A stretch of DNA of 64,000 bases from Streptomonospora nanhaiensis (GTDB lineage: Bacteria; Actinomycetota; Actinomycetes; Streptosporangiales; Streptosporangiaceae), in assembly GCF_013410565.1 (NCBI RefSeq), contig NZ_JACCFO010000001.1:2418001-2482000 (forward strand), in the 5' to 3' direction. Below, one piece after another: positions 15,223 through 63,078 of this stretch. A program made the position numbers and the translations under genes. How positions within the stretch are numbered: the first letter of the stretch is position 1; every line of letters begins with the position of its first letter. The notes below the pieces were generated by a model. It searched no databases, was not told the DNA's origin, and saw only the letters and a list, made by a program, of their open reading frames with translations.

Positions 15223-15399
15223 CTACAACTCGCCCGCCTTGACCCCCGCCAGGAAGGCACTCCACTCATCCTCGGAGAACCCAAGGCACCCGAGGTCCCG
15301 GTGCTGGGTGTCGCGGACCAGCGTCTGCTTGCCTTCGGACACCTCGACGCAGTTGGCGCCCTTCGGCCCGCTGTAGCTGCTCTTGTGCCAGCCTCGCAT
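15223..15399 (-). CDS. DUF397 domain protein, copy 1
   Basis: 58 residues beginning MRGWHKSSYSG, with the DUF397 signature W-x-KSSYS, CVEV, VRDT and a closing WSAFLAGVKAGEL. DUF397 proteins are small partners of XRE/DUF5753 regulators (BldB/WhiJ-type systems, often toxin-antitoxin-like). GGTGAGGG precedes the ATG. It lies 12 nt after copy 2 and is nearly identical over its C-terminal 38 residues, a recent tandem duplication. Confidence 0.9.
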   Translation of the reverse strand: MRGWHKSSYSGPKGANCVEVSEGKQTLVRDTQHRDLGCLGFSEDEWSAFLAGVKAGEL

Positions 15400-15539
15400 C
15401 GCCCTCACCTACTACAGCTCGTCTGCCTTGACCCCCGCCAGGAAGGCACTCCACTCATCCCCGGAGAACCCAAGGCACCCGAGGTCCCGGTGCTGGGTAT
15501 CGCGGACCAACGTCTGCTCGCCCTCGGAGACCTCGACGC
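15237..15539. repeat. tandem duplication of the DUF397 gene unit
   Basis: About 15237-15350 recurs at 15426-15539, an offset of 189 bp, with only scattered substitutions (mostly synonymous or in the variable N-terminal third of the protein). The unit equals one DUF397 gene plus spacer. Confidence 0.85.
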
Positions 15540-15591
15540 ACTCACCGCCACTGCCGTCGCTATAGCTACTCTTGTGCCACTCTCTGCACAT
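15412..15591 (-). CDS. DUF397 domain protein, copy 2
   Basis: 59 residues, MCREWHKSSYSD..., same domain as copy 1. Its ATG lies inside the end of the XRE gene (26-bp overlap), so its translation should be coupled to the regulator. Main differences from copy 1 are in residues 12-18 (DGSGGE versus GPKGAN), which may set partner specificity. It was found by direct translation of the 180-bp frame. Confidence 0.88.
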   Translation of the reverse strand: MCREWHKSSYSDGSGGECVEVSEGEQTLVRDTQHRDLGCLGFSGDEWSAFLAGVKADEL

Positions 15592-16384
15592 TGTCTATCT
15601 CCTTGATCCGCTTGAGAGATTCAGCCGGGGACAGCGCCTCGCCTTGGACCAGCCCGAAGATCGTACTGAGTTCGGCGGTCTCCTGCGGTTTGGTGATGCT
15701 ACGGCCTCCCAACGGATCGTCGATGAACGCGACGACTCGGGAGTCGTCCAGGTTCATCAGACGGAAGGCACTACACAGGCCGGGATGCCGGGGCACATCC
15801 GACATCAGGTACAACCGGATGTTTCCACCCTCCGCCAGATCGATCAGACGCTGCCGCTGCTCATGCATGATCTGCACGTTCCCGACCACGCGCGAAATCG
15901 CCACCTCTTCGACAACAAAGCACAGCAAAGGTCGCGTATCCGCCAGGTGCGCCATTCGCTCGACTCGCGTCTGCACCATGTATTCGACCTCTTCCGCCGT
16001 GCTGCGCACCTTGCGAGCACTGATGAGGCTCCGCGCGTAGTCTGCGGTCTGAAGCAGGCCGGGGACCAGTATCGAGTGGTACTCGCGAATCTCTCGCGCC
16101 CGCCGCTCCATCTTCAGAGCGTTCTTGAACTCTCCTGGCACATGGGCGTCTTGGACCAACTCCTCCCACAGTTGCCGAAGCGCGCCCCCGGTCGTAAGCG
16201 CGTCATCGAGGGCTTCCACCTTGTCACGTGGTGGCCATCGTGTGCCCGCCTCGTACTTGCCGATCATCTGGCGGCTTATGCACGCCTTTCGACCGAGGGA
16301 GTCCATCGTCTCCCCGGCCAGCCGCCGCGTCTGACGCAACTCCGTTCCCCAACGCTTCCATTTTTCGTTCACACGCTCCACCAT
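15566..16384 (-). CDS. XRE-family regulator with DUF5753
   Basis: 272 residues from ATG 16384. An N-terminal helix-turn-helix (about 10-65, with SRQMIGKYEAG as recognition part) is followed by DUF5753 (about 90-270; motifs ILVPGLLQTADYAR, RVERMAHL). This is the usual length of DUF5753 regulators. It overlaps the first of two DUF397 genes, the standard regulator/partner arrangement. Base composition is clearly lower in GC than the surroundings and codon use less biased, suggesting transfer. The frame continues upstream but without similarity. Likely autoregulated through the palindrome at 16443-16458. Confidence 0.92.
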   Translation of the reverse strand: MVERVNEKWKRWGTELRQTRRLAGETMDSLGRKACISRQMIGKYEAGTRWPPRDKVEALDDALTTGGALRQLWEELVQDAHVPGEFKNALKMERRAREIREYHSILVPGLLQTADYARSLISARKVRSTAEEVEYMVQTRVERMAHLADTRPLLCFVVEEVAISRVVGNVQIMHEQRQRLIDLAEGGNIRLYLMSDVPRHPGLCSAFRLMNLDDSRVVAFIDDPLGGRSITKPQETAELSTIFGLVQGEALSPAESLKRIKEIDNVQRVAQE

Positions 16385-16458: not shown

Positions 16459-16530
16459 GGCAGGTCAGCCTGGGAGCGGGCATGCTGGAAGCACGAACCG
16501 AGCAGCACCATCCGAACCCCGGAGGCGCGA

Positions 16531-16851
16531 ATGGAAAAGACAGAAGGGTGGGAATGTCGGCTTTGCACCAGGCCCAACAACACTGAGGAGGTATGCGGGT
16601 ACTGCGGAAATCCTTTGAGCGCCAATGCGACGCTCCCGCCGCTCCCGCATAAAAGACCCGTTCGACGGGTCCGAAGGGCCTCCCGGATCCGGCCCTACGT
16701 GCACCGGCACTTCCGGCACCACCCAGTACCCGACTCCCCTCCCCCCGGCACTCCCTGGTCGGGACGAGGGTTGAGGGAGGAGGGCGCCGTCGCGGGCGCT
16801 CTCCCAACGGCGGTCGGCTGTCTCACCAGCACTGCGGCCACCGCCGGATAA
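16531..16851 (+). CDS. small protein with RanBP2-like zinc finger
   Basis: 106 residues; GGAGG sits 5 nt before the ATG. Residues 7-25 read W-x-C-x2-C-x3-N-x5-C-x2-C (Trp7, Cys9, Cys12, Asn16, Cys22, Cys25), which is the RanBP2-type zinc-finger pattern with one spacer residue fewer. Residues 35-75 are Pro/Arg/His-rich and look disordered. Divergent from the XRE regulator and in the same lower-GC island. Could bind RNA or protein; function unknown. The tail after residue 60 is weakly supported as coding, but there is no earlier stop. Confidence 0.65.
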   Translation: MEKTEGWECRLCTRPNNTEEVCGYCGNPLSANATLPPLPHKRPVRRVRRASRIRPYVHRHFRHHPVPDSPPPGTPWSGRGLREEGAVAGALPTAVGCLTSTAATAG

Positions 16852-16908
16852 GGCGGGGTAGGGCATAGCCCCGCCGGGCGGGGAGTGCCAGCCCCCGCCC
16901 ACAACACA

Positions 16909-16950
16909 GAGGGGCGGCCGCGTTCTTCTCCCACGTTGCGGCCGCCCCTC
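16909..16950. terminator. bidirectional terminator
   Basis: 13-bp perfect stem GAGGGGCGGCCGC (16909-16921) with its complement (16938-16950), 16-nt loop, between two convergent genes ending at 16851 and 16960. Confidence 0.7.
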
Positions 16951-16959
16951 GCCCGTAGC

Positions 16960-17394
16960 TCAGAGCGTGCGCGCCTTGGTCATGGTGTGCGGGGCGCCGT
17001 TGACCGCAGGCCGCTCGCTCCGCGTCAGCCCCTTGTCGAGGCTCACCTTGGCGCCCTTGGCGAGGTCCGTGACACCTGGGCGCTCGCCGCCCTTCTTCTT
17101 CAGAAACACCGAGCCCAACTTCGCGGCCACGGCCGCGGCCGCGCCCTGGGGGTCGCCGTTGGCGGGCGCGGCGGGCGCGTCCAGGTTGATGGCGTCCATG
17201 CCCGGGATGCCGACCGCGGTACCGACGGCGGCCCTGGTCATGCCGCGCGCAGCGCCCTCAAGCAGCTTCGCCATCTCCGCCCCGGACCGGACCGCCTCCG
17301 GGCCGTCTGTCGGCGCCACCTGGGGCTGCGGCTCCTCGTCGCGCACCTCGACCGCCGCGCGCAGGTCCATCTTCTCATCTTGGGAAAACGCCAT
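16960..17394 (-). CDS. hypothetical protein A of the shared-promoter cluster
   Basis: 144 residues from ATG 17394 (GAGAGG upstream). An acidic N-terminus (1-35) is followed by a Gly/Ala-rich, weakly hydrophobic middle (about 40-100, e.g. MTRAAVGTAVGIPGM) and a basic end. No family recognised and no clear homology to the neighbours, but it carries the same promoter (17453-17481). An in-frame ATG at 17457 would include the promoter in the coding region, so it is rejected. Confidence 0.65.
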   Translation of the reverse strand: MAFSQDEKMDLRAAVEVRDEEPQPQVAPTDGPEAVRSGAEMAKLLEGAARGMTRAAVGTAVGIPGMDAINLDAPAAPANGDPQGAAAAVAAKLGSVFLKKKGGERPGVTDLAKGAKVSLDKGLTRSERPAVNGAPHTMTKARTL

Positions 17395-17452
17395 TGTCGC
17401 CTCTCGCTTTCCACGTATGGCACTGAAACCGGACGGGGCAGGGTCCGGAAAG

Positions 17453-17481
17453 ATCATTGTCGTTCACCGCGGGTTCGACAA
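17453..17481 (-). promoter_or_regulatory. shared-type promoter of gene A
   Basis: Minus strand: -35 TTGTCG (17481-17476), 17-bp spacer, -10 AATGAT (17458-17453), followed by CCGGACCCTGCCCC. The -10 ends 58 nt before the ATG. One of seven near-copies in the cluster. Confidence 0.7.
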
Positions 17482-17491
17482 CCCGAAACGG

Positions 17492-18114
17492 CTATGCCGT
17501 AGGTCCCTTCTTCGCGCCCGGGGACGGCGGCAGGCGACGGGCCGCGTCGGCGGTGGCTTTGCGCTTGCCGCACCGCTCCACCCGGCGGCGCGGACGGTCG
17601 CGCAGGACAGGCGTCGGCCGGTCCGCCGCACGAAGGGCGGCCTCGTGCCGCTCCAGCTCACCGGACACCCGGTCGAGGTGCCGCGCCTTCAGTTCACCGA
17701 CGGCGGTCTGCCGCTCCACGTCCCGCGTCCTGCCCTCGTAGTGGGCGATCGCCTGAGCGGCCACCTGCGCGGCCTCGCCCGTGCTGCCGGGCACGGACTC
17801 GACCGGCCCGAGGAGCCAGCCGCCCGGCTCGTGGTAGGACGTGTCCGACAGCGCGCGGGTGGTCATGCGGATCCAGGCGTCCACCTGCCGCATGAACCCG
17901 GGATCGAGGCGGGGGCTGCCTTTGCGGCCTGCGTGGCGAGTTCGGCGCTCTTGTCGGCCATCGTCTCGGCCGCCTGCCTCATGGCCTTCACCGCGCGCCG
18001 GAAGTCCTCGCGCTTCCGGTAGACCTGGCTCCTCAGTTCCGGAGAGACCCGCTCCAGCACCGGCACCAGGTTCTGGAAGTAGTCGGTCTCCGCGCGGTAG
18101 TACTGCTCCGCCAT
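17492..18114 (-). pseudogene. hypothetical protein B (paralog of C and D), frameshifted
   Basis: Starts MAEQYYRAETDYFQNLVPVLERV at 18114 and aligns with C and D, but that frame ends after 83 residues (stop at 17863). The homologous remainder, with the family EPGGW motif and an Arg-rich basic tail, continues in the -1 frame to 17492. The switch lies near 17900-17925, next to a CCCCC run; one missing base would restore a protein of about 207 residues. It could be a true mutation, a homopolymer sequencing error or slippage. Its -35 is also the least conserved of the seven. Confidence 0.7.
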
Positions 18115-18173
18115 CTCTCTCCTTCCCCCCCCGCACCGCTCAGCGGACAGGGCGGAGTCCGTAGTGCACAGGG

Positions 18174-18203
18174 ATCATGCCGCACGGCCGCGCCCGCGCA
18201 CGG
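18174..18203 (-). promoter_or_regulatory. shared-type promoter of gene B (degenerate -35)
   Basis: -10 CATGAT (18179-18174); the -35 would be CCGTGC with an 18-bp spacer. Downstream CTGTGCAC is identical to that of gene C. The weakest member of the set. Confidence 0.55.
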
Positions 18204-18215
18204 CCGGCGGGAGCG

Positions 18216-18860
18216 CTACGCGGAACGCCCCGGACGGCGCCCGGTGGCCCGGCCCTGACGGACGGCGGCGGTTGCCCGCCGGCGGCCTGCCCTCACCGTG
18301 GTGCGCCGCTGCGCGGTCCGGCCTCGGGGGGTGTCCCGGGTGACCGGCGGCTTGGCGGCGGCCTCGCGAGCGGCGGACCGGGCGGATTCGCGCTCCCGGT
18401 AGTGGGCGACGACATCGGCGAGTTCACCGGCGAACGCGTTCGCCTTGGCCGTCCGGGTCTGGGCGACCTCCGTCTTGCCGCGGTACACGCGGGCGCCTAT
18501 GGCGACCCTGGTCGCGGCGTCCCGGGGCGGATCGTTGGAGTAGACCCACAGGTTGGGCTCGTTGAAGGCGCTCTCGTCCACGAGCCGTTCGCCCCTGTGC
18601 AGCAGGGTCCGCAGGCGGTCGACAGAGGCGCGGGAGCCGTCGGCGTCCGAGAGCGGCGTGTCGGGCAGGCCGCGGACGATCTCCTTCAACTCGGCGAGCC
18701 GCCCCGCCACGGCGCGGGCGGCCTTCCGCAGCTCACCGGCGGCGGCCTGGTAGTCCCTCCGGGCACCGGCGTACTGCTTTTGAAGCTCGTCGGAGGCCAG
18801 GTGGAGAACGGGCGCCAGCATGGCGTGGTAGTCGCTCTCGTGCGCGTGGATCGCAACCAT
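18216..18860 (-). CDS. hypothetical protein C, intact reference member of the paralog family
   Basis: 214 residues from ATG 18860. Helical N-terminal region: SDYHAMLAPVL (9-19), DELQKQY (24-30), heptad-like Ala/Leu/Arg to about 63; then a middle with EPNLW (101-105) and a second helix rich in Lys/Arg/Ala (TAKANAF). The last 45 residues are strongly basic and Thr/Arg-rich (RTTVRAGRR, ending GRSA). No signal peptide or membrane span, so likely cytoplasmic; the tail could bind nucleic acid. Paralogous to B and D along its length. Unknown family to me. Confidence 0.75.
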   Translation of the reverse strand: MVAIHAHESDYHAMLAPVLHLASDELQKQYAGARRDYQAAAGELRKAARAVAGRLAELKEIVRGLPDTPLSDADGSRASVDRLRTLLHRGERLVDESAFNEPNLWVYSNDPPRDAATRVAIGARVYRGKTEVAQTRTAKANAFAGELADVVAHYRERESARSAAREAAAKPPVTRDTPRGRTAQRRTTVRAGRRRATAAVRQGRATGRRPGRSA

Positions 18861-18933
18861 CGCTCGCCTCTCGTGTCCGTGCCGCGCGCCCCCGGCCGCG
18901 AGCCGGAAGGTGGGAAGGGCGGTGTGCACAGCG

Positions 18934-18962
18934 ATCATGGTGCACTCCCGCGCGCCGCACAA
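18934..18962 (-). promoter_or_regulatory. shared-type promoter of gene C
   Basis: -35 TTGTGC (18962-18957), 17-bp spacer, -10 CATGAT (18939-18934), then CTGTGCAC. The -10 ends 73 nt before the ATG at 18860. Confidence 0.7.
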
Positions 18963-18974
18963 CCCGTGGAGACG

Positions 18975-19603
18975 CTAGGCGGAGCGCCCCCGGCCGCTCT
19001 CGGAGGAGTCCGGGCGGCGGCCGGCGGCGGCGCGGCCCCGCTGGCGCCCCGCTTTGATCGTGGTGCGCTGCCGACGGCCGGAGCCTCGGGCGTTGTCACG
19101 GGTAGGCGTGGGCACCTGGGCGGCGGCGTTGTCCGCCGCCTCGGCGGGTGGGGGCGTCCCGTGCTCCGCGATGGCGGCGTCGAGCTTGGCCAAAAACTCG
19201 TTCGCCTTCGACGTCCTGTGCTGGACGGTCTTCGTCTGCCGTTCGTAGAGGTTTGTGCCCGCGGCGACCAGACGAGCCAGCCGGAACGTCCTATCGAGGG
19301 CGGACCCGGGGTAGTCCCAGTAGGCGGGCTCGCGGGGAGGGGAGTCGGCCCAGAAGTACTCCGCCTGCGCCAGCACCTTCCCAAGCGCCTCCCAGCGTTC
19401 GTGGTTGTCCGTGGAGGCTTCACGGATCTCGCGGATCCGCTTGAGCCTTTCCGTCAACCCGCTCTCGGCTGCGCGCAGCGGCTTCAGGGCGTCCCGGTAT
19501 GCCTTCCTGGCGTCGCCGAACTGCTCCGCGACGACATGGGGCACCTTGCCAGCGCCGGCGCGAGCCTCTCGTAGTAGTCGCCTTCTCTGAAGAACGTCTT
19601 CAT
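18975..19603 (-). pseudogene. hypothetical protein D (paralog of B and C), frameshifted
   Basis: Starts MKTFFREGDYYERLAPALAR at 19603, matching the start of C, then the frame closes within 40 residues. Homology resumes one base out of phase at VPHVVAEQFGDARKAYRD and runs to the stop at 18975, including PAYW in the EPxxW region and a tail RTTIKAGR...GRSA nearly the same as in C. A single missing G in the AAGGTG stretch near 19544 would give the exact length of C in this region. Otherwise the protein looks well conserved, so decay is recent, or it is a base-calling error, or the ribosome slips. Confidence 0.72.
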
Positions 19604-19659
19604 GGCGTGTCCCTCGTCTCTTCTCCTCGCTTCCGGGACCGGCCCCGGACGTTCGGACG

Positions 19660-19688
19660 ATGATGGCGGCCCGCCCCCGGTTGCACAA
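19660..19688 (-). promoter_or_regulatory. shared-type promoter of gene D
   Basis: -35 TTGTGC (19688-19683), 17-bp spacer, -10 CATCAT (19665-19660), followed by CCGAACGTCCGGGG. The -10 ends 56 nt before the ATG. Confidence 0.7.
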
Positions 19689-19741: not shown

Positions 19742-19780
19742 GAAGGGGGCGGCCGGACCGATGCGTCCGGCCGCCCCTTC
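19742..19780 (-). terminator. icmA terminator
   Basis: 16-bp stem with one bulged G (19742-19758 with 19765-19780) and a 6-nt loop, starting 27 nt after the icmA stop and ending upstream of gene D's promoter. It insulates the two units. Confidence 0.7.
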
Positions 19781-19807: not shown

Positions 19808-21577
19808 CTAGAGCCGGGGGTCCTCGGTATAGGTGCCGAACTCCTGGCCCATCGTGCCGCAGATCTCGCCCAGGGTGGCCTCGGCGCGGGCGGCCTGGAG
19901 GATGACCGGGATCAGGTTGGGCCGGGCGGGGTCGCGCACGGCGTCGAGCAGGTCGGACAGCGCGGCGTCGACGGCGGCCTGGTCGCGCTTGGCGCGGCGC
20001 TCGGCCAGCACCCGCCGCTGCTCCTCCTCGACCTCGTGGCTGATGCGCAGGGTCTCGACCTCGCCGGTGATGGTGGAGGTGTGGCAGTTGACGCCGACGA
20101 TGCGCTTCTCGTCCTTCTCCAGCGCCTGCTGGTACTGGAACGCCGACTCGGCGATCTCGGAGGTGAACCAGCCGTTCTCGATGCCCGCCAGGATGCCGGA
20201 GGTGATGGGGCCGATGGCGTGCTCGGCGGCGTCGCGGCCGGCCGCCGCGGCGTCCTCGGCGCGCTCGGCCTCCTTGGCGGCGCCCATGCGCTCGATGCGC
20301 TCGAAGATCCGCTCGGCCTCCTCCTCCAGCCGGTCGGTGAGCGCCTCGACGTAGTAGGAGCCGCCGAGCGGGTCGGCGACGTTGACCACGCCGGTCTCCT
20401 CCATGATCACCTGCTGGGTGCGCAGCGCGATCTCGGCGGAGGTGGCGGTGGGCAGCGCCAGGGTCTCGTCGAGGGCGTTGGTGTGCAGGGAGTTGGTGCC
20501 GCCCAGCACCGCCGACAGCGCCTCGACGGCCGTGCGGACCACGTTGTTGTAGGGCTGCTGGGCGGTGAGGGAGACGCCGGCGGTCTGGGTGTGGAAGCGC
20601 AGCCACATGGCCCGGTCGTCGGTGGCGCCGAAGCGGTCGCGCATCCAGCGGGCCCAGATGCGGCGGGCGGCGCGGAACTTGGCGATCTCCTCGAAGAAGT
20701 CGATGTGGGCGTCGAAGAAGAACGACAGCCCGCGCGCCAGTTTGTTGACGTCGAGCCCGCGCGAGAGCCCCAGTTCGACGTAGCCGAACCCGTCGGCGAG
20801 CGTGAAGGCCAACTCCTGCGCCGCCGTGGCCCCGGCCTCGCGGATGTGGTAGCCCGACACCGACAGCGGCTTGAACGCCGGGATGTTCTCGGTGCAGTAC
20901 TCCATCAGGTCGCCGATGAGGCGCAGGTGCGGCTCGGGCGGGTACAGCCACTCCTTCTGGGCGATGTACTCCTTGAAGATGTCGGTCTGCAGGGTGCCGT
21001 TGAGCGTGGTGATGTCGGCGCCCTGGCGCTCGGCGGCGACCAGGTACATGCAGAAGACGGGGATGGCCGGGCCGCTGATGGTCATGGACGTCGTGGTCTC
21101 GTCCAGCGGGATGCCGTCGAACAGGACGTCCATGTCGGCGGCGGAGTCGACGGCCACGCCGCAGTGGCCGACCTCGCCCAGCGCCATGGGGGCGTCGGAG
21201 TCGTAGCCCATGAGCGTAGGCATGTCGAAGGCCACCGAGAGCCCGCCGCCGCCGGAGGCCAGGATCATCCGGTAGCGCTCGTTGGTCTGGCGGGCGTTGC
21301 CGAAGCCGGCGAACTGGCGGATGGTCCAGGGCCGCCCGCGGTAGCCGGTGGGGTACAGGCCGCGGGTGAAGGGGAACTCCCCCGGCCACCCGATGCGCTC
21401 GAACCCGGGGACGTCGGCGCCGGGCGGGGGTCCGTAGACCGGATCGACCGGTTGCCCGGACAGCGTGGTGCGGGGTTCGGGCGCGGCGGCGCCGCGCCCC
21501 TGGCGCGGTGCCCGCGCGGCGTCGTAGCGCGCCTGCCAGCGGGCCCGGCCCGCGGCGATCTCCTCAGCCTTGGCCAT
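19808..21577 (-). CDS. icmA: isobutyryl-CoA mutase large subunit
   Basis: 589 residues with the acyl-CoA mutase catalytic barrel but no C-terminal cobalamin-binding domain (no DxHxxG), ending [14 protein letters not shown]; a separate small subunit is therefore needed. Two substrate-specificity positions differ from methylmalonyl-CoA mutase: Phe89 in TIRQFAGF (Tyr in MCM) and Gln207 in EYIAQKEW (Arg in MCM). Phe plus Gln is the known pair of isobutyryl-CoA mutase, which interconverts isobutyryl- and n-butyryl-CoA with adenosylcobalamin. Leaderless start with TAATAT 6 nt before the ATG. The IcmB subunit is not in the window. Automated annotation would probably say methylmalonyl-CoA mutase. Confidence 0.9.
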
Positions 21578-21603: not shown

Positions 21604-21872
21604 ATTTGTATAGGAACCGCGCGCCGCGCCCGTTACGCGAGGAACGCCGCGCGGGAGGCCGCGGGAGCGCCGGCGCGCGGTGCCGCGCGGACTCGGCCGC
21701 GCTGGGGGTCGGCCTTGCCCAGCGCGACGCCCTTGGGCGCGTCCGCTCCAGTTCTCGTGGCCGGGGACCGCACGCGTCGTCCGCGGATCGTAGGACGGGT
21801 ACGGCTTCAGCGCCGATCGTCGAGGCGGCCGTGGTCGGGCACGGCGGCTCCGTGGGGGCGGAAGGGGAGGTG

Positions 21873-23025
21873 CTAGCGGTGGTTGTGCGCGCGCCGGGCT
21901 CCGCCGGGCGAAGTTCGGCGAGGCCTCGCGGGCTGGATGACCGTGCGCTTGGGCTCGCGCTGTGGGGACGCGGCGGCGTCGCGGGGCGGGCGCGGGGCGT
22001 CGGCGGCCGCGGCGCGGTCGGGGCGGTGCTCGGGGGCGGGAGCCTCCGCCTTCACCCCGTCCGACTTCAGCACGGCGCGGGCCGTGTCGGCCATCTGGGC
22101 GATCGACGCCCGCTGATCGACCAGGGCCACGATCTCGCGGGTGAGGAAGCGTTTGGCGTCCTTGACGATGGAGACGGGGTCTTGCTGCCGCTCGGCCCCG
22201 GCGAGCGGGGCGAGACTGACCTCCCGCGTCAGTCTGCTGTCCAGGTAGGTCACCGTCGTCTTGACGACGAAGGCGGCGTCGAAGTCCTCGTGGCCGGGCA
22301 CTCCGACCTCGGGCGGGATCCGCTCGGCCGCGGCCCGCAACTCGCGCATCTCCTTCGCCCGCGCCAGGCGGACCTCGCTGTAGCGGTCCAGCAGGTCGGA
22401 GTAGGACGCCGCGTGGTGCGCCGTGGCCGGGTCGGCGCGGACGGCCTCCAAAGCGCCCTGGACGGCCCTGTCGTCCACCTCAAACTCCCGGTAGGAGGAG
22501 CGGCCCGCGCGGGCCGCTCGCAGGGCGTCCCCCAGGACCCGCTCGGTCGTCGCCAGCGCCTCCCGCGCCCGCGCCGCCGCTGCCATGGACCTCGCGGTCT
22601 CGTAGGAGAGGCGGCGGGTGTCGGACTCCAGGGTGCGCTTGGCGCCGTCGACGACCGCGGCCCCGTGGGAGCGTTCCGTCGGATGCCGCAACCGCTGCCG
22701 CCGGCCCGCCTGGAGTTGCAGCGTGGGGGCCGGTGTTCTCCCGCTTGGTCTGGCGGTCCGTCTCCGACAGCCGCTGCCAGGCGTCGGCGAGGCGGGGGTT
22801 CTCGGAGGACGCCGTCAGCTCGCTGACCTTCTCCTCGAACGCCTTTCGGAAGTCCGAAAGCTCCCAGGCCGCCCGGCCGAGGACCCCCCTCGCCTCGGCG
22901 TAGCCCTCCCGGGCCGCGACGTTCTCCCGCCGCAGGTCGGCATAGGAGCTTTCACCGGGCCGGTGGACCTCGAATCGCAGGTAGGGCGTGATCGACGCGT
23001 CTTCGACGGGAGGTTCGAACGACAT
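21873..23025 (-). pseudogene. hypothetical protein E of the shared-promoter cluster, frameshifted
   Basis: Begins MSFEPPVEDASITPYLRF at 23025 and reads as a charged helical protein to about residue 95 (TDRQTKREN). The same frame then turns into low-complexity Arg/Gly sequence (stop 22480), while plausible coding continues in the +1 frame to 21873 (EFEVDDRAVQGALEAV, YSDLLDRYSEVRLARAKEMRELR, an acidic-basic Pro-rich tail). Removing one C from the CCCCC run near 22725-22735 joins them into about 383 residues. An alternative is two overlapping genes, the second starting at TTG 22691. Function unknown. Confidence 0.6.
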
Positions 23026-23086
23026 GAGCGGCTAACGGGGCGGGGGGCGGTCCGGAACGGCGGGGAAGGGGGTCGGGTCGTGAGTG

Positions 23087-23115
23087 ATCATGGCGGTTCG
23101 CCGCCCTGCGGACAA
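23087..23115 (-). promoter_or_regulatory. shared-type promoter of gene E
   Basis: -35 TTGTCC (23115-23110), 17-bp spacer, -10 CATGAT (23092-23087), followed by ACGACCCGACCCCC. The -10 ends 61 nt before the ATG at 23025. Confidence 0.7.
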
Positions 23116-23168: not shown

Positions 23169-23846
23169 CTACGCCTTCGAGGCGCCCCGGCCGTCGCGGG
23201 CCCGCGGGACGGGGGCGCGCGAAGGCTGGGTCGGGCCGGGACCGGAGCGCGCGCCGCGCCTCCCCGTGAGCCGGCCCGCCATCTCGCCCGCGATCCTCCG
23301 CGCGGGGTGGTCCTGCGTCTCCCGTGCCTCCCCCGCTTCGCGGGGGGTGTCGAGCTCCTTCTGGAACGCCTCGATGGCCGCGAGGTCCTCGCGCATGCTC
23401 GCGGACTGCTTGCCGATCCTGGCGGTGTCCTGCCGGAGCGCGTCGATCACCTCCTGCAGGGCCTGCCGAGCGTACGTCGGGGAGACCATGGACCGCACCC
23501 GTTCGGTGAGGCCGCTGTTCTGGTTCTTCAGCACCTCCGCCACGGCACCGGTCTTCGACAGGTCGGTGGGCTGGGACTGCACGACGTGGATCGCCGTCAT
23601 CAGGCCGTTCAGCCGATCCGCGGCCGGATGGTTGTTCTCCCGTGCCTGGTCCCGGAGGCTATGCACGGTCGAGAGCTTGGTTGACAGCTTCTCGCGGGCG
23701 CTGCGCCACGCCTCCACGGCGTCCTGCCACTGTGCGGCCGCCGTACCGAGCTCCTCACGCACGGAGCCCTTGGCCTGGGCCATCAACTGCTCCAGGTACG
23801 CCAGTCCGTCCTGGTTCACACCGTCCGCGGAACCGCTCTCGACCAT
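23169..23846 (-). CDS. hypothetical helical protein F of the shared-promoter cluster
   Basis: 225 residues from ATG 23846 (GGAGG 5 nt upstream). Almost entirely helical by composition: QLMAQAKGSVREELGTAAAQWQ near the start, a central segment (about 85-125), then another helix pair to about 175; the final 50 residues are Arg/Pro/Gly-rich and basic. No signal peptide or membrane span. Same general architecture and promoter as C but no clear sequence homology. Unknown function. Confidence 0.72.
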   Translation of the reverse strand: MVESGSADGVNQDGLAYLEQLMAQAKGSVREELGTAAAQWQDAVEAWRSAREKLSTKLSTVHSLRDQARENNHPAADRLNGLMTAIHVVQSQPTDLSKTGAVAEVLKNQNSGLTERVRSMVSPTYARQALQEVIDALRQDTARIGKQSASMREDLAAIEAFQKELDTPREAGEARETQDHPARRIAGEMAGRLTGRRGARSGPGPTQPSRAPVPRARDGRGASKA

Positions 23847-23908
23847 GCCGCCTCCGTTGTCCGACACGAGCACGCTGGGATGACGGACGGGGGCGGGGTC
23901 CGAAACGG

Positions 23909-23937
23909 ATGATGGCGTGGGAACGTCCGCACGGCAA
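23909..23937 (-). promoter_or_regulatory. shared-type promoter of gene F
   Basis: -35 TTGCCG (23937-23932), 17-bp spacer, -10 CATCAT (23914-23909), followed by TTTCGGACCCCGCCCCC. The -10 ends 62 nt before the ATG. Confidence 0.7.
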
Positions 23938-23977: not shown

Positions 23978-24604
23978 CTACCGGGCGCGGCCCCGGGCCG
24001 GGCCCTCGCCCGGGCGCGGTCCCCGGGCCGGGACGGTCCTTCGCCGCGCGGCGGCGGCCTTCGGCGACCTCGGCAGCCGGGCGTCGCCGCCCCGCGCGCG
24101 CTCCGTTGCCGCGAGCTCCGTCCGGATCCGCCGGACGGCGTCGCGGGCGTCCACGGTGGCCGCGACCAGGGTGCCGTGGCGGTCCTCCAGGCTCTTGCGG
24201 GCCTGGTTCACCTGGGCGGCGGCATCGGCCACCACCTGCCGGGAGTGCTCCACGGGCTCGGCGCCGGGGCCGGGCGGGCGCGAGGCGAGGACCACGGCCT
24301 CCGGCGGGCGGGCCGCCTCGGCGATGCGCTCCCGCAGGGCGGACAGGTCGGCCAGTCCGGCGGGGCGGTCCGCGCCCAGGGCCTCGACCTCGCGCTGGGT
24401 CCGGGCGGCCTGCTCGTCGGCCCGCCGGGCGTCGTCGCCGCCCGCGCCCCAAGCCGCGCGGGCGTGGTCGTACTCCTCCAGCGCCCGCTCCAGCAGCCCG
24501 ACCTCCGGCGCGGGCCGGGTCCCTCCGGCCCCGGCCGTGCGCAGCCGTTGCAGGTCCGCCTGGATGGCCGTGGCGTCCACGGCGCCGAAGTGGTCGTCGG
24601 GCAT
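23978..24604 (-). CDS. hypothetical helical protein G of the shared-promoter cluster
   Basis: 208 residues from ATG 24604. Ala/Arg/Glu-rich helices (about 10-70, LLERALEEYDHARAAW; 70-100; 115-165, VADAAAQVNQARKSLEDRH) and a 40-residue Pro/Arg-rich basic tail ending GPARGRAR. No signal or membrane region. No family known to me. Grouped with A-F by promoter, size and tail rather than by sequence homology. Confidence 0.7.
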   Translation of the reverse strand: MPDDHFGAVDATAIQADLQRLRTAGAGGTRPAPEVGLLERALEEYDHARAAWGAGGDDARRADEQAARTQREVEALGADRPAGLADLSALRERIAEAARPPEAVVLASRPPGPGAEPVEHSRQVVADAAAQVNQARKSLEDRHGTLVAATVDARDAVRRIRTELAATERARGGDARLPRSPKAAAARRRTVPARGPRPGEGPARGRAR

Positions 24605-24658
24605 GCCGCACCTTCCGTCGTGGGGGGTCTGCGAGCGGCGGGGTCGGGGCCGAGGACG

Positions 24659-24687
24659 ATGATCGCGCCTGGCGGCCGTCCTGGCAA
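24659..24687 (-). promoter_or_regulatory. shared-type promoter of gene G
   Basis: -35 TTGCCA (24687-24682), 17-bp spacer, -10 GATCAT (24664-24659), followed by CTCGGCCCCGACCCCG. The -10 ends 54 nt before the ATG. Confidence 0.65.
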
Positions 24688-24840
24688 TCTTCCCGGCCCG
24701 GCCCGCCCTCCCGCGCCCGGTTCACCCTTCCCCGCACGGCCCGCGCGGCGGCGGGCCGGGGGGCTCGCGACACTGCACCGCGTCGCCGCGCCCGCCTCGT
24801 GCGCACGAACGCGGGCGAGTGCGGCCCGGCTCCGGCGCCC

Positions 24841-25371
24841 TCAGCGGCCGGCCGCGCCGCCCTTGTCCGCCGGGAAGTCGCCGAACTCCACCCGGAGCTT
24901 GGTGAACATGGCGTGGATCCGCCAGTTCTCCTCGTCGGAGTAGCAGTCGAGGCCGAAGTCCATGGCGGTGAGGTCGCGGGTGGCGTCCTCGACCACCTGG
25001 CGGCCGCTGTCGGTGATCTCGGCGAGGGTGCCCCGGCCGTCGCTGGGGTTGGGCTTGCGGCGCACGAAGCCCTGGCGCTCCAGGCGGTCGATGGTGTTGG
25101 TGACGCTCGTGGGGTGCACCATCAGCCGTTCGCCGATCTTGCCCAGCGGCAGGGCGCCCGTGGAGCTGAAGGTCAGCAGCACCAGCGCCTCGTAGCGCGC
25201 GAAGGTCAGCTCGTAGGGTTTGAGCGCGGCGTCGAGCTGGCCGAGCAGGATCTGCTGGGCGCGCATGATCGAGGTGACCGCCGCCATCGCCGGGTTGGCC
25301 CCCCAGCGGCGCGTCCAGTTCTCGTGCGCCCGCTCGATGGGGTCGAACGGAAGATTAAGCGGGTTACCCAC
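24841..25371 (-). CDS. MarR family transcriptional regulator
   Basis: 176 residues from GTG 25371, giving an N-terminus VGNPLNLPFDPIERAHENW. The winged helix-turn-helix spans about 65-125: recognition helix region MVHPTSVTNTIDRL and wing NPSDGRGTLAEI. MarR proteins are dimeric repressors usually controlled by small ligands. TACAGT lies 6 nt before the GTG, so the mRNA is probably leaderless. It sits between meaB and the gene cluster around icmA; regulation of acyl-CoA mutase genes is plausible but not shown. Confidence 0.93.
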   Translation of the reverse strand: MGNPLNLPFDPIERAHENWTRRWGANPAMAAVTSIMRAQQILLGQLDAALKPYELTFARYEALVLLTFSSTGALPLGKIGERLMVHPTSVTNTIDRLERQGFVRRKPNPSDGRGTLAEITDSGRQVVEDATRDLTAMDFGLDCYSDEENWRIHAMFTKLRVEFGDFPADKGGAAGR

Positions 25372-25377
25372 CCCGCC

Positions 25378-25383
25378 ACTGTA
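25378..25383 (-). promoter_or_regulatory. -10 element of the marR-type gene (leaderless)
   Basis: TACAGT on the minus strand, 6 nt before the GTG start; fits TANNNT. Confidence 0.5.
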
Positions 25384-25533
25384 TCGAGCGCCGGGCGCGG
25401 CCGATCCCCCACACCCTGTGGTCACCGCAGCTCGGCGGGGTTGCCCCCGCCTCCGCCGGTGCGGAAAAAGACGGCGCCCTCCTGCGGTCGTGCGTCGGCG
25501 GGTACCGAAGGGCGCCGGCCGGCGCCCCGCCGG

Positions 25534-26478: not shown

Positions 26479-26782
26479 CGGGCTCCCTCCGCGTCCGCTC
26501 CGACCGCGGCCCGTGGCCCAGCCGCCCCGGTCGCCGCATGTCCAGAGGCCCGAGTATGGCAAACGCCGCACACCGGGGGTACCGACGCCCCGGGTGGGCC
26601 GGGGATGACGCCGTGACCCAATCTCCACCGGCCGCATGTGGCCCCGATCCGGCGGCGGCGGTTTCCGCCGCGGACCTGCCCGCGGCAACGGCGCCGGGTT
26701 AGCCTTCGAAGCAGGAATTCCGCTTTTCCTCTTTCTCCTTTCCCCGGTATCCGGAGGTTTCCGCCACCGAAAGGCGAACCAC
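26479..26782. other. divergent promoter region, meaB / trypsin-like gene
   Basis: 304 bp. A plus-strand TAGCCT (-10-like) lies near 26700, followed by a pyrimidine-rich stretch (about 26719-26748) in the likely 5' leader of the protease gene. No gene seen. Confidence 0.4.
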
Positions 26783-27670
26783 GTGAAAAAACCACCGGAA
26801 AAGTCCGTCCCGAATTACATGGGGCGCGTTCTCACCCCCGCGGGAGCCCCGCTGGGCACGTGCTTCCAACTGGCCCCCTCGGTGATCGCCACGGCCTGGC
26901 ACGTCGCCCGGGAAGCCGTGTCGCTGGGCGACGGCGGCCCCCTTCGCCTCGACGCGCTCGCCGAGGGTGCGGACAATCCCGTGCGGACCGCCGAGATCGT
27001 GCGCGAGGACCGCGCGCGCGACCTCGCCGTCCTGCGCGCCGAATCCGCCTTCGCCGGCAGCGTCCGGCTGCTGCGGCCCGCCGCGTCGGTCAACCGCGCC
27101 GAACCCCTGGTGATCGTGGGCCACGCCGAACTCCGCGAGGCGGCCGGGGCACCGCGGCCCCGGTCGCTGGAGGCGCTGGGCACCTGGCAGGGGATCGTCA
27201 CCCGCACCGACGACGTCCTGCTGGGCCGGATCACCGCACCCGACGTGCTGCGCGGCATGAGCGGCGCACCGGTCCGCCGGCGGCGCGACGACGCCGTGGT
27301 GGGCGTGGTCTCGGGCCGCTACAACTCCACCGACGGCTGGCTGGAGCACAGCGTGTGGGTGGCCCGGACCGAGGACCTGCGCGCCCTGTGCGCGGGCCTG
27401 GCCGACCTGGACGGCGGCGGCCCCTGGGCGGAGTTCGCGGCCGCGGCGGGCGCGGTCGCGGCGGCCGAGGCCGCCGACGCGGCGCTGCGCCGGGGCGGGC
27501 CCGGAGCTTCTGACGGCGCGCCGGAGGCCGCCGTCGCCCCACCGCTCACCCCGTCGCCCGGCGCCGATCCGCCGGGGCCCGAGGCCGCCGAGGCGTCCGG
27601 CACCCGCGGCGGTCCGGCCGCCGACGACGGCGAGGGCGGCCTGCTGGGGTGGCTGCGCGACCTCTTCTGA
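26783..27670 (+). CDS. trypsin-like serine protease of a conflict-type cassette
   Basis: 295 residues from GTG 26783 (AAAGG upstream). Triad residues are visible: His40 (TAWHVA), Asp80 (RDLAVL) and Ser160 (GMSGAPV), so it should be active. No signal peptide, so it acts in the cytoplasm. Residues 215-285 are Ala/Pro/Gly-rich linker, and the protein ends in an amphipathic GLLGWLRDLF. Such N-terminal trypsin-like domains, next to Trypco-domain genes, are described effectors of NTP-dependent biological conflict systems; here no STAND ATPase is fused or adjacent. First of three plus-strand genes. Confidence 0.85.
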   Translation: MKKPPEKSVPNYMGRVLTPAGAPLGTCFQLAPSVIATAWHVAREAVSLGDGGPLRLDALAEGADNPVRTAEIVREDRARDLAVLRAESAFAGSVRLLRPAASVNRAEPLVIVGHAELREAAGAPRPRSLEALGTWQGIVTRTDDVLLGRITAPDVLRGMSGAPVRRRRDDAVVGVVSGRYNSTDGWLEHSVWVARTEDLRALCAGLADLDGGGPWAEFAAAAGAVAAAEAADAALRRGGPGASDGAPEAAVAPPLTPSPGADPPGPEAAEASGTRGGPAADDGEGGLLGWLRDLF

Positions 27671-27884
27671 GGCCGCCCTGCCGCCCGCCGCATCCGCCCG
27701 GCCCCGGCGACCCGCCCGCCGGCCTTCTCCGCGGCACCCGGTGTCCCCCGCTCCCCCGTACGCGCGGCCTCCCGTGCTCCCGCTCTCACGGCGCCCCGCG
27801 CCGCACCGCCCGTCCACGACGCGCGATGCGGCACCCGATTCCGGCTCCCTCTTCCCCCACCTGACCCCGACAGGAGTCCTTGCC

Positions 27885-28352
27885 GTGGATTCGTTCCTGC
27901 GCCCCGGTGACCGGGGCTATGCGTTCTGGCTCGACCGCGTGTCGTGGTCCAACCGGCACCCCATGACCCTGCCGCTGCTGCTGGCCGACGGGCAGCGCAC
28001 CGACCTCCCCATCGCCCCCGGCCACGCGTTCATCCGCGAGGCGGACGGTCTGCTGCTGCGGTTCACCTACGTGGACTCCGCGGGGCGCGACTACCAACTG
28101 GCCCTGGACTTCACGGGCGAGGACCCCGACGGCACCTACCGTCCGCTCATCAACCCCCGGTCCCTGCTGGCGCTGCTGCGCCGGCCCACGCCCGTGGGCG
28201 TCGCGGTCGCTGTCGGCGCGCCGGCGCTGCGCTACCTGGTGCGGGAGTTCTTCGACTCCGACGGCCTGCCGCCGGGCACCGGGTACTACGTGCAGCCCTC
28301 GGGCGGCATGGTGATCAGCGGCGCCGCCGTTCTGCAGCGGGCCGAGCGGTGA
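27885..28352 (+). CDS. unknown protein of the trypsin/Trypco cassette
   Basis: 155 residues from GTG 27885, AGGAG 8 nt upstream. Beta-rich by composition with several aromatic positions (GYAFWLDRVSW; FTYVDSAGRDYQLALDF), one weakly hydrophobic helix (about 103-115, VGVAVAVGAPAL) and a Gly-rich end. No family recognised. Its stop overlaps the start of the next gene by 4 bp (GTGA), so both are translationally coupled. It lies 214 bp after the protease gene and probably belongs to the same functional unit; may be sensor, adaptor or inhibitor. Confidence 0.7.
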   Translation: MDSFLRPGDRGYAFWLDRVSWSNRHPMTLPLLLADGQRTDLPIAPGHAFIREADGLLLRFTYVDSAGRDYQLALDFTGEDPDGTYRPLINPRSLLALLRRPTPVGVAVAVGAPALRYLVREFFDSDGLPPGTGYYVQPSGGMVISGAAVLQRAER

Positions 28353-28693
28353 GCACCGAACTGGTGCCGGTCACCATCGACGGCCAGGACGTCTACATCG
28401 AGGTGCGGCGGCTGCCGGGGTCGGAGCCGACGTCGTCGGCCCGGCTGGAGGCCGCCGGCCGCAAGGCGGTCGAGGCCCTGGATCTGGCCCAGGACGCCGT
28501 GGTGTCGGTGGCCGCGCGGTTCGCCTCGACCGTGGCCGACCTCGGCCGCCAGGCGGTGCGCCCGGAGTCGGTGTCGGTGGAGTTCGGGATCACCATCGCC
28601 ACGGAGGGCAACGTCATCCTGCTGAGCGGATCGGCCCAGGCGTCGCTGTCGGTCGTGCTGACCTACCCCTGCCGCCCACCCCGCGCCGACTGA
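28349..28693 (+). CDS. Trypco1-type (CU044_2847 family) protein
   Basis: 114 residues from GTG 28349. Layout matches the trypsin-co-occurring domain 1 family: N-terminal strand pair (LVPVTIDGQDVYIEV), a central helix (about 35-70, ending STVADLG), then a conserved RPESVSVEFGITIATEGNVI block and a final strand. Known members accompany trypsin-like proteases in predicted immune/conflict operons; their biochemical role is unproven. Overlaps the preceding gene by 4 bp, and a bidirectional hairpin follows. Confidence 0.85.
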   Translation: MSTELVPVTIDGQDVYIEVRRLPGSEPTSSARLEAAGRKAVEALDLAQDAVVSVAARFASTVADLGRQAVRPESVSVEFGITIATEGNVILLSGSAQASLSVVLTYPCRPPRAD

Positions 28694-28728
28694 CCCGCCC
28701 CGGGGCGGTGGACCCCGCCCGGCCCCAC

Positions 28729-61119: not shown

Positions 61120-63078
61120 TCAGTGCTCGTTGGGGCCGCCGACCGTGGTCTGCTGCACCTGGAGCAGGAACTCGGTGTTGCTCTTGGTGTCCTTCATGCG
61201 CTCCAGCAGGAGTTCGAGGGCCTGCTGGATGTCGAGGGCGTGCAGCACCCGGCGGAGCTTCCAGATGATCTTCAGCTCCTCGTTCGACATGAGGATCTCC
61301 TCCTTGCGGGTGCTGGAGGAAACCACGTCGACCGCGGGGAAGATGCGCTTGTCGGCCAGGGACCGGTTGAGCTTCAGCTCCATGTTGCCGGTGCCCTTGA
61401 ACTCCTCGAAGATGACCTCGTCCATGCGCGAACCGGTCTCGACCAGCGCCGTGGCCAGGATGGTCAGCGACCCGCCGTTCTCGATGTTGCGGGCGGCGCC
61501 GAAGAACCGCTTGGGCGGGTACAGCGCCGTGGAGTCGACACCACCGGAGAGGATGCGCCCGCTCGCCGGGGCGGCGAGGTTGTAGGCGCGGCCCAGGCGG
61601 GTGATGGAGTCGAGCAGGACCACCACGTCCAGGCCCATCTCGACCAGGCGCTTGGCGCGCTCGATGGCAAGCTCGGCGACCGTGGTGTGGTCCTCGGCCG
61701 GACGGTCGAAGGTCGAGTGGATGACCTCGCCCTTGACCGTGCGCTGCATGTCGGTGACCTCTTCGGGCCGTTCGTCGACGAGCACGACCATCAGGTGGGT
61801 CTCGGGGTTGTTCTCGGTGATCGCGTTGGCGATCGCCTGCAGCACCATCGTCTTGCCCGCCTTGGGCGGCGAGACGATGAGCCCGCGCTGCCCCTTGCCG
61901 ATGGGCGCGACCAGGTCGATGATCCGCGTGGTGAGGATGTTCGGCTCGGTCTCCAGGCGCAGGCGGTCCTGCGGGTAGAGCGGGACCAGCTTGGCGAACT
62001 CCGGGCGGCTGCGGGCCTGGTCGGGCGCCATGCCGTTGATGGTGTCGAGCCGGACCAGGGCGTTGAACTTCTCGCGCCGCTCCCCCTCGCGCGGCTGGCG
62101 CACGGCACCGGTGATCGCGTCGCCCTTGCGCAGGCCGTTCTTGCGGACCTGGGCCAGCGAGACGTAGACGTCGTTGGCGCCGGGCAGGTAGCCGGTGGTG
62201 CGCACGAACGCGTAGTTGTCGAGGATGTCCAGGATGCCGGCGACCGGCAGCAGGACGTCGTCGTCGCTGATGACCGGCTCGGTCTCCTGGCGCTCCCCGC
62301 GCCCGGAGCGGCGGTCGCGGCGGTCGCGGCGGCGGCCGCGCCGGCGGCCGGTGCCGAAGTCGTCGTCGCCCCCGCCGCCACCGCGGCCGGTCTGCTGCCC
62401 GCCCTGGCCGCCGCCCTGCTGGGCGGTGTCCTGGGTCGGGGCCTCGGCGGCGGAGTCCTCGCGGCTGCCCCGGTTGCGGCGGTTGCGCTGCCGTTCACGG
62501 CCCCCGCTCTGGCCGGACTGGCCCTGGGAGTCGGAACCGGACTTCTGGGAGTTGGATGTCTTGGTCACGCTGCTCGCGGGGGTAGAGGTGTCGCCGTCCG
62601 ACGGCCGGTTCTGGTCAGTTGCGTCGTCGCCGCGCTTGCGCGTGGTGCGGCGGGTGCGGGCCGGCTTGTCGGTCCGCTCCGCCTGGTCGGCGCCGCCCTC
62701 GCGGGCGGCGGCCTGCTCGGCCGGGGCCGCCTGCGCTGCGGGCTCGCCCGCCTCGGCGGGGGCCTGCTCGGCGCGCTCGGCGGGCTTGCGCCCGGCGGCC
62801 GCCTGCGGCGCCGCGACCGGGCCGCCCTGCTTGGCCTCGATGGCGGTGATGATGTCGTTCTTGCGCATCCGCCCCGTGCCCGTGATACCGAGACTCGACG
62901 CCAGCCGCTGAAGCTCGGTGAGCTTCAGCGCCGACAGGCCCGTGCCTTGGCTGCGCGACCGAGACGGCGTGCTCTTTCTGGATGAGGTCGCGGCGTCGCC
63001 GGCGTCCACATCGGACGCGGTCGAGTTCTGCTGCGTGCTGACCGCCGCGTCCGTGTGGAGTTCGGTGGTGTCGCTCAC
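61120..63078 (-). CDS. rho: transcription termination factor Rho
   Basis: 652 residues from GTG 63078, GGAAGGA upstream. N-terminal Rho_N helices (LSALKLTELQRLASSLGI; RMRKNDIITAIE), then a long Arg/Gly/Asn/Gln-rich insert (about 95-265) typical of actinobacterial Rho, the RNA-binding cold-shock domain (GILDILDNYAFVR...), and the hexameric ATPase with Walker A SPPKAGKT and catalytic VVLVDERPEEVTDM. Ends ALELLLERMKDTKSN. Terminates untranslated transcripts; the insert broadens RNA binding and can promote condensate formation in relatives. Confidence 0.97.
   Translation of the reverse strand: MSDTTELHTDAAVSTQQNSTASDVDAGDAATSSRKSTPSRSRSQGTGLSALKLTELQRLASSLGITGTGRMRKNDIITAIEAKQGGPVAAPQAAAGRKPAERAEQAPAEAGEPAAQAAPAEQAAAREGGADQAERTDKPARTRRTTRKRGDDATDQNRPSDGDTSTPASSVTKTSNSQKSGSDSQGQSGQSGGRERQRNRRNRGSREDSAAEAPTQDTAQQGGGQGGQQTGRGGGGGDDDFGTGRRRGRRRDRRDRRSGRGERQETEPVISDDDVLLPVAGILDILDNYAFVRTTGYLPGANDVYVSLAQVRKNGLRKGDAITGAVRQPREGERREKFNALVRLDTINGMAPDQARSRPEFAKLVPLYPQDRLRLETEPNILTTRIIDLVAPIGKGQRGLIVSPPKAGKTMVLQAIANAITENNPETHLMVVLVDERPEEVTDMQRTVKGEVIHSTFDRPAEDHTTVAELAIERAKRLVEMGLDVVVLLDSITRLGRAYNLAAPASGRILSGGVDSTALYPPKRFFGAARNIENGGSLTILATALVETGSRMDEVIFEEFKGTGNMELKLNRSLADKRIFPAVDVVSSSTRKEEILMSNEELKIIWKLRRVLHALDIQQALELLLERMKDTKSNTEFLLQVQQTTVGGPNEH

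Follow-up and report, generated by a model that had tools for sequence, protein, structure and literature searches.

Gene content of the locus

The locus lies within a 64-kb window, meaning the whole stretch of DNA that was analyzed, in the 6.28-Mb genome of a salt-loving Streptomonospora. On the minus strand the genes follow one another in the order MeaB, MarR, H, G, E, a remnant of F, methylmalonyl-CoA mutase (MCM), D, C, B, A, XRE-DUF5753, DUF397-like, and thioredoxin-TPR. The array comprises up to eight genes (A to H) for proteins of 14 to 42 kDa, and it adjoins a regulator pair. The nearest relative found was Streptomonospora mangrovi S1-112, likewise salt-loving, with which the window strain was compared. 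The genes of the locus are as follows.

23978..24604, minus strand: H, orphan protein with a basic tail; residues 1 to 154 are identical in S. mangrovi and are followed by abrupt divergence
23169..23846, minus strand: G, a remote member of the B/C/D family over its full length, with a similar predicted helix order
21873..23025, minus strand: E, helical protein with a basic tail; paralog of F, possibly related to B/C/D
21660..21810, minus strand: F remnant, reduced to a short stretch from the N terminus; the open frame of F is longer in S. mangrovi
19808..21577, minus strand: MCM large-subunit gene, conserved, splitting the island and having a different upstream region
18975..19603, minus strand: D, family member with a -1 frameshift near 19551
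18216..18860, minus strand: C, intact family member of 214 amino acids, pI 11.0, with a predicted four-helix body and an Arg-rich tail
17492..18114, minus strand: B, family member with a -1 frameshift near 17905
16960..17394, minus strand: A, orphan protein of 144 amino acids, 52 to 55% identical to its S. mangrovi homolog and carrying the promoter-like element described below
15566..16384, minus strand: XRE-DUF5753 (WhiJ-like) regulator, matching HTH_31 and DUF5753; 40% identical in S. mangrovi
15223..15408, minus strand: small DUF397 (BldB-like) protein after the XRE gene, assigned by its KSSYSG and CVEV signatures

The XRE-DUF5753 and DUF397 genes are present in both species that carry the island. 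An earlier note on this DNA, made from the letters alone, had drawn attention to B, C, and D; it overlooked both frameshifts and the adjoining regulator pair, as well as the wider extent of the array and its common promoter-like element.

Sequence family and reading frames

B, C, and D are paralogous, with blastp E values of about 1e-9 to 1e-4, far above shuffles. The claim that they are homologous along their length held for C and D (E=5e-9; 92 bits against at most 37 in 200 shuffles) and for C and B3, the intact S. mangrovi homolog of B (E=9e-9; 56 against at most 29). The EPxxW motif, proposed as common to the three proteins, is invariant in five of five sequences, namely B, C, D, and both S. 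mangrovi copies; all five combine it with full-length similarity, and it lies between helices 3 and 4. The tails of C and D had been called almost identical. The RTT(V/I)(R/K)AGR stretch and the GRSA end are indeed present in both, but outside the 9-mer and the last four residues the tails are merely similar. The chains of the family end in -GPTA (B), -GRSA (C and D), -GASKA (G), and -GRTA (S. mangrovi B3), a possible C-terminal recognition tag.

B and D had been taken as single reading frames, and this part of the earlier description failed: each requires a -1 frame change, and both changes had been read through. The change in D is also seen as a 1-nt gap at 19551 against S. mangrovi DNA. Among the three genes, only C is intact. 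E, which is intact in S. mangrovi, has lost its frame here through an 11-nt deletion near 22732. With B, D, and E frame-broken and F reduced to a remnant, half of the array is decayed in the window genome. All three frame breaks fall within fast-evolving genes. The conserved neighbors MCM, MarR, MeaB, and thioredoxin-TPR have no frame-breaking gap against S. mangrovi, indicating that the breaks in B, D, and E are probably real mutations. Sequencing error is less likely as a general cause, since the breaks are confined to fast genes and the conserved neighbors are clean, and a single-base error in B or D is possible. Programmed frameshifting in B and D is also less likely because no common slippery site is visible, the change in E is an 11-nt deletion, and the S. 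mangrovi B homolog and E are intact.

In S. mangrovi, C and B lie in one open frame, with an intact B homolog behind C, in which the tail of C is missing and a single basic tail stands at the end. This arrangement suggests that the basic tail is a module required once per chain.

Predicted structure and charge

C is a 23-kDa protein with a pI of 11.0 and no hydrophobic segment. Its AlphaFold model (mean pLDDT of 80, pTM of 0.67) contains helices at residues 8 to 19, 24 to 63, 76 to 95, and 115 to 169, followed by a tail (residues 179 to 214) with a pLDDT below 50 that is predicted to be disordered. The charge is +1 for the body and +14 for the last 45 residues, and the model and charges agree with the helical body and basic disordered tail that had been proposed. 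The nucleic-acid or membrane-lipid binding structural role suggested alongside them is putative. The same division applies to B3, C, and D together, in which tails of +10 to +14 per 45 residues sit on near-neutral bodies. The absence of a visible signal peptide could likewise be upheld, and no transmembrane stretch was visible either, the highest 19-residue Kyte-Doolittle mean for B/C/D being at most 0.59. A Foldseek search with the C model gave no PDB or viral match at E<=0.001. Fold matches of C obtained with VIA-align were generic helical bundles, the top Z score of 10.0 being within the range of the tool for common helical arrangements, and they were set aside without counting against any family.

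Relation of the other array genes to B, C, and D

The B/C/D profile aligned with G with an hhalign score of 28.8 over 182 columns, full length and collinear, compared to at most 17.3 for 60 column shuffles and at most 19.2 for unrelated proteins of the window. By profile score G therefore belongs to the family, with EPxxW absent. The AlphaFold model of G is of low confidence (pLDDT of 62) and has a helix order similar to that of C. The paralogy of B, C, and D thus stands, but the extent first given to the family does not, as it reaches past these three genes to G. E scored 20.6, above the shuffles and near the unrelated maximum of 19.2, and F scored 15.0, within the shuffle range. E and F are paralogs of each other (score of 26.4, shuffles at most 18.0), and they may be kin to B/C/D. 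Membership of H found no support, its score of 13.3 being equaled or exceeded by 12 of 60 shuffles, and A has no detectable relation to B/C/D.

A shared promoter-like element

Six genes (A, C, D, E, G, and H) have a 30-nt element in their upstream regions, TTG(T/C)-N20-AT(G/C)ATC, in most cases with GG in front of it; B has a degenerate form.

24658..24687, minus strand: promoter-like element of H (TTGC-N20-ATCATC)
23908..23937, minus strand: promoter-like element of G
23086..23115, minus strand: promoter-like element of E
19746..19777, minus strand: terminator-like hairpin of 13 pairs, between MCM and the promoter-like element of D
19659..19688, minus strand: promoter-like element of D
18933..18962, minus strand: promoter-like element of C
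18173..18203, minus strand: degenerate promoter-like element of B (CCGTGC ... CATGATC)
17452..17481, minus strand: promoter-like element of A

The 64-kb window contains seven matches to the element against 0.09 expected, a post hoc comparison because the pattern was drawn up from these very sites. Six of the seven belong to the six genes named above, lying before them on their own strand, and the seventh, at 61895 on the plus strand, is inside a minus-strand open frame. In 400 kb sampled across the genome there were two matches, both apparently within coding sequence. With a position weight matrix trained on the same sites, the elements scored 34.6 to 45.6 against a best score of 19.3 elsewhere. 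Four copies occur in S. mangrovi, one each in front of H, G, C, and A. No copy was found in the upstream region of MCM.

The spacing of 17 nt between the TTGNNN and NATSAT hexamers is promoter-like, and the H copy passes a sigma-70-type scan. Given this spacing, the occurrence of the element before these genes (degenerate before B), and the terminator-like hairpin before D, A, B, C, D, E, G, and H seem to be transcribed separately, as members of a single regulon. The element could be the promoter of an alternative sigma factor.

Distribution

B/C/D gave nothing convincing in Pfam, NCBIfam, PHROGs, PADLOC, PDB, phages, plasmids, or viral contigs. Among known nucleic-acid binding families, the best Pfam match of C was HTH_62 at 15.7 bits against a cut-off of 27. 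The best PHROGs match had an E value of 0.006 in one of five members, and PADLOC gave none for C and D. A phage or plasmid origin was considered and dropped, there being no matches. When 121 genomes of the GTDB family were searched with the profile, full matches were limited to the window strain and S. mangrovi; S. mangrovi was also the sole return of a GTDB contig scan, and 119 sampled genomes of the phylum held nothing convincing. H followed the same two-species pattern in 100 genomes, plus one marginal partial match. Marginal partial HMM matches in other genera (E of 1e-5 to 1e-2, over short helical stretches) were taken as chance rather than as a wider family. The B/C/D family is new and very narrow. 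The view of it as a new paralogous family without a known domain was confirmed by the family, fold, and genome searches, which matched the sister species only; a clear match to a characterized family, the outcome that would have overturned that view, did not appear in Pfam, NCBIfam, PHROGs, PADLOC, or PDB.

In four other Streptomonospora genomes, this locus held no detectable relative of A to H, XRE, or DUF397. The MarR-MCM or MeaB-MarR gaps of these genomes hold TPR-like proteins and chitinase-like genes. That the gaps flanking MarR are filled by other genes in relatives indicates an insertion-prone locus.

Divergence between the window strain and S. mangrovi

Divergence was estimated with simple NG86 values of dS and dN/dS, which are crude for GC-rich genes, and the flanking genes were therefore used as a control. 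These flanking genes are 96 to 99% identical, with dS of 0.04 to 0.15 and dN/dS of 0.06 to 0.24. In contrast, dS was about 0.5 to 0.9 and dN/dS 0.55 to 1.0 for C, A, B, and G, and dN/dS was 1.1 to 1.55 for E; the value for C was 0.55 (bootstrap range of 0.40 to 0.79). The island genes thus diverge about five times more than the flanks at silent sites. Identity shifts abruptly at the island edges and within H, which is 59% identical after residue 154. The simplest reading of these boundaries is that diverged alleles were exchanged by recombination.

Two further stretches differ from their surroundings. Positions 24143 to 25424 (MarR to the body of H) are 95 to 100%, mostly 98 to 100%, identical to S. 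mangrovi, a higher value than for most of the conserved genes nearby; this stretch stops abruptly inside H and is a possible recent recombination tract. Positions 16500 to 16930, without an assigned gene, are 92 to 100% identical and lie between the diverged A and the diverged XRE gene.

Possible role of the array

Pairs of the XRE-DUF5753/DUF397 kind, named WhiJ/BldB in Streptomyces, occur in many copies per actinobacterial genome, and to our knowledge their targets are mostly unknown, IosA and AbaA being among the few examples. IosA is encoded at the whiJ9-bldB9 locus of Streptomyces venezuelae, where it is activated by WhiJ9 and, when overexpressed, inhibits sporulation (PMC10294661). The protein, a strongly basic cytoplasmic orphan of small size, has no known structural relative, and it adjoins an XRE regulator and a DUF397 protein (PMC10294661). 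C resembles it in charge, small size, lack of relatives or a known fold, and neighborhood, adjoining XRE-DUF5753 and DUF397 genes. On the strength of this analogy, we propose IosA/AbaA-like dosage effectors under a WhiJ/BldB-type pair, in an island recently gained by two sister Streptomonospora species. We hold this explanation as a whole only tentatively, as possible rather than probable. The XRE-DUF5753/DUF397 pair would keep the array genes silent and release them in development or stress, with nearly every gene driven by its own copy of the promoter-like element. In this scheme, the proteins would form oligomers or engage one particular partner through the four-helix body and grip a polyanion (DNA, RNA, or ribosome) with the disordered Arg-rich tail, and their dosage would block or retime differentiation.

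The likeness to IosA and AbaA is one of properties and neighborhood rather than of compared sequences, and it has limits. AbaA genes are multi-copy effector genes beside WhiJ/BldB pairs and form large paralogous sets in most Streptomyces (PMC10294661), whereas B/C/D are confined to two species and match no family HMM. Unlike IosA, the array here has as many as eight genes, which share a promoter-like element and occur in two Streptomonospora species only. The WhiJ9 site (direct repeats of CGXXCTCAAC) is not evident at this locus. H and A, which carry the element without detectable homology to B/C/D, count against an IosA-type role. The XRE protein is 40% identical between the species while the element is conserved, so that XRE may not be the factor reading it, and with four genes (B, D, E, and F) broken in this genome the system may be dispensable.

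Several other explanations share parts of this evidence. The proteins could be lineage-specific nucleoid- or RNA-associated structural proteins that oligomerize through their helical bodies and cover DNA or RNA with their Arg-rich tails, perhaps in spores, with expression from an alternative sigma-factor promoter and the XRE/DUF397 pair as an unrelated neighbor. The tail charges of +10 to +14 per 45 residues on the near-neutral bodies of B3, C, and D, the predicted disordered tail of C, and the shared element with its 17-nt spacing and sigma-70-like score for H are consistent with such a role. However, the array proteins are 40 to 60% identical between the species while the flanks are at 96 to 99%, and conserved nucleoid proteins are rarely so divergent between species this close. 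The loss of half the set should also be costly, and there is no match to any known DNA-binding family. We consider a nucleoid or RNA role rather unlikely. The divergence itself, with silent sites at about five times the flanks and dN/dS of 0.55 to 1.5 against 0.06 to 0.24, would fit a polymorphic conflict or recognition module in which alleles are swapped by recombination and the proteins inhibit growth or act as decoys during competition or conflict with phages. The sharp identity boundaries, the mosaic H gene, the presence or absence among species, and the decay point the same way, and a toxin-antitoxin function has been suggested for XRE/DUF397 pairs (PMC10364602). Against such a module, the array genes have no convincing PADLOC, toxin, or phage family match, no secretion signal, and no recognized variable toxic C-terminal domain or immunity gene, and we regard it as improbable.

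The decay could also mean that these are dying duplicates of an insertion without a present function, the common promoter being a mere relic of tandem duplication. B, D, and E are frameshifted and F is a remnant in the window genome, dN/dS is near 1 for E and G, and the locus is insertion-prone in relatives. However, C is intact with a dN/dS of 0.55 (0.40 to 0.79), and S. mangrovi has open frames for the C-B fusion, A, E, G, and H. The element also precedes A and H, and no test run marked either of them as a duplicate of C. We take a functionless relic to be an unlikely account of the locus.

The most solid new result, on the sequence comparisons made here, is the element-sharing array linked to a WhiJ/BldB-type pair. 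Known XRE-DUF5753/DUF397 pairs have been studied as regulators (PMC10364602), and such a pair occurs with this island; a limited literature search found no published adjacent array of promoter-sharing, helical, basic proteins beside one. A broader formulation is a new class of island in which an XRE-DUF5753/DUF397 pair commands diversifying basic-tailed helical effectors through a private promoter element, swapped between species by recombination and retiming development or discriminating relatives, and this we regard as very doubtful. As candidate effectors of the IosA/AbaA type, the array proteins make the locus a testable candidate for a lineage-specific developmental effector set. It is a compact test case, combining a single regulator pair with several small proteins and the promoter-like element common to their genes; a gene family can also be seen there to diversify and decay between sister species, next to genes that are 96 to 99% identical.

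Neighboring insertion or deletion

A stretch of about 2.1 kb at 26604 to 28720 is missing in S. mangrovi, which has 27 bp there. It contains a trypsin-like peptidase gene (26636 to 27670, plus strand, PF13365), an orphan gene (27741 to 28352, plus strand), and a predicted tRNA-Lys(ctt) at 28405 to 28498 on the minus strand, with an unusual length of 94 nt.
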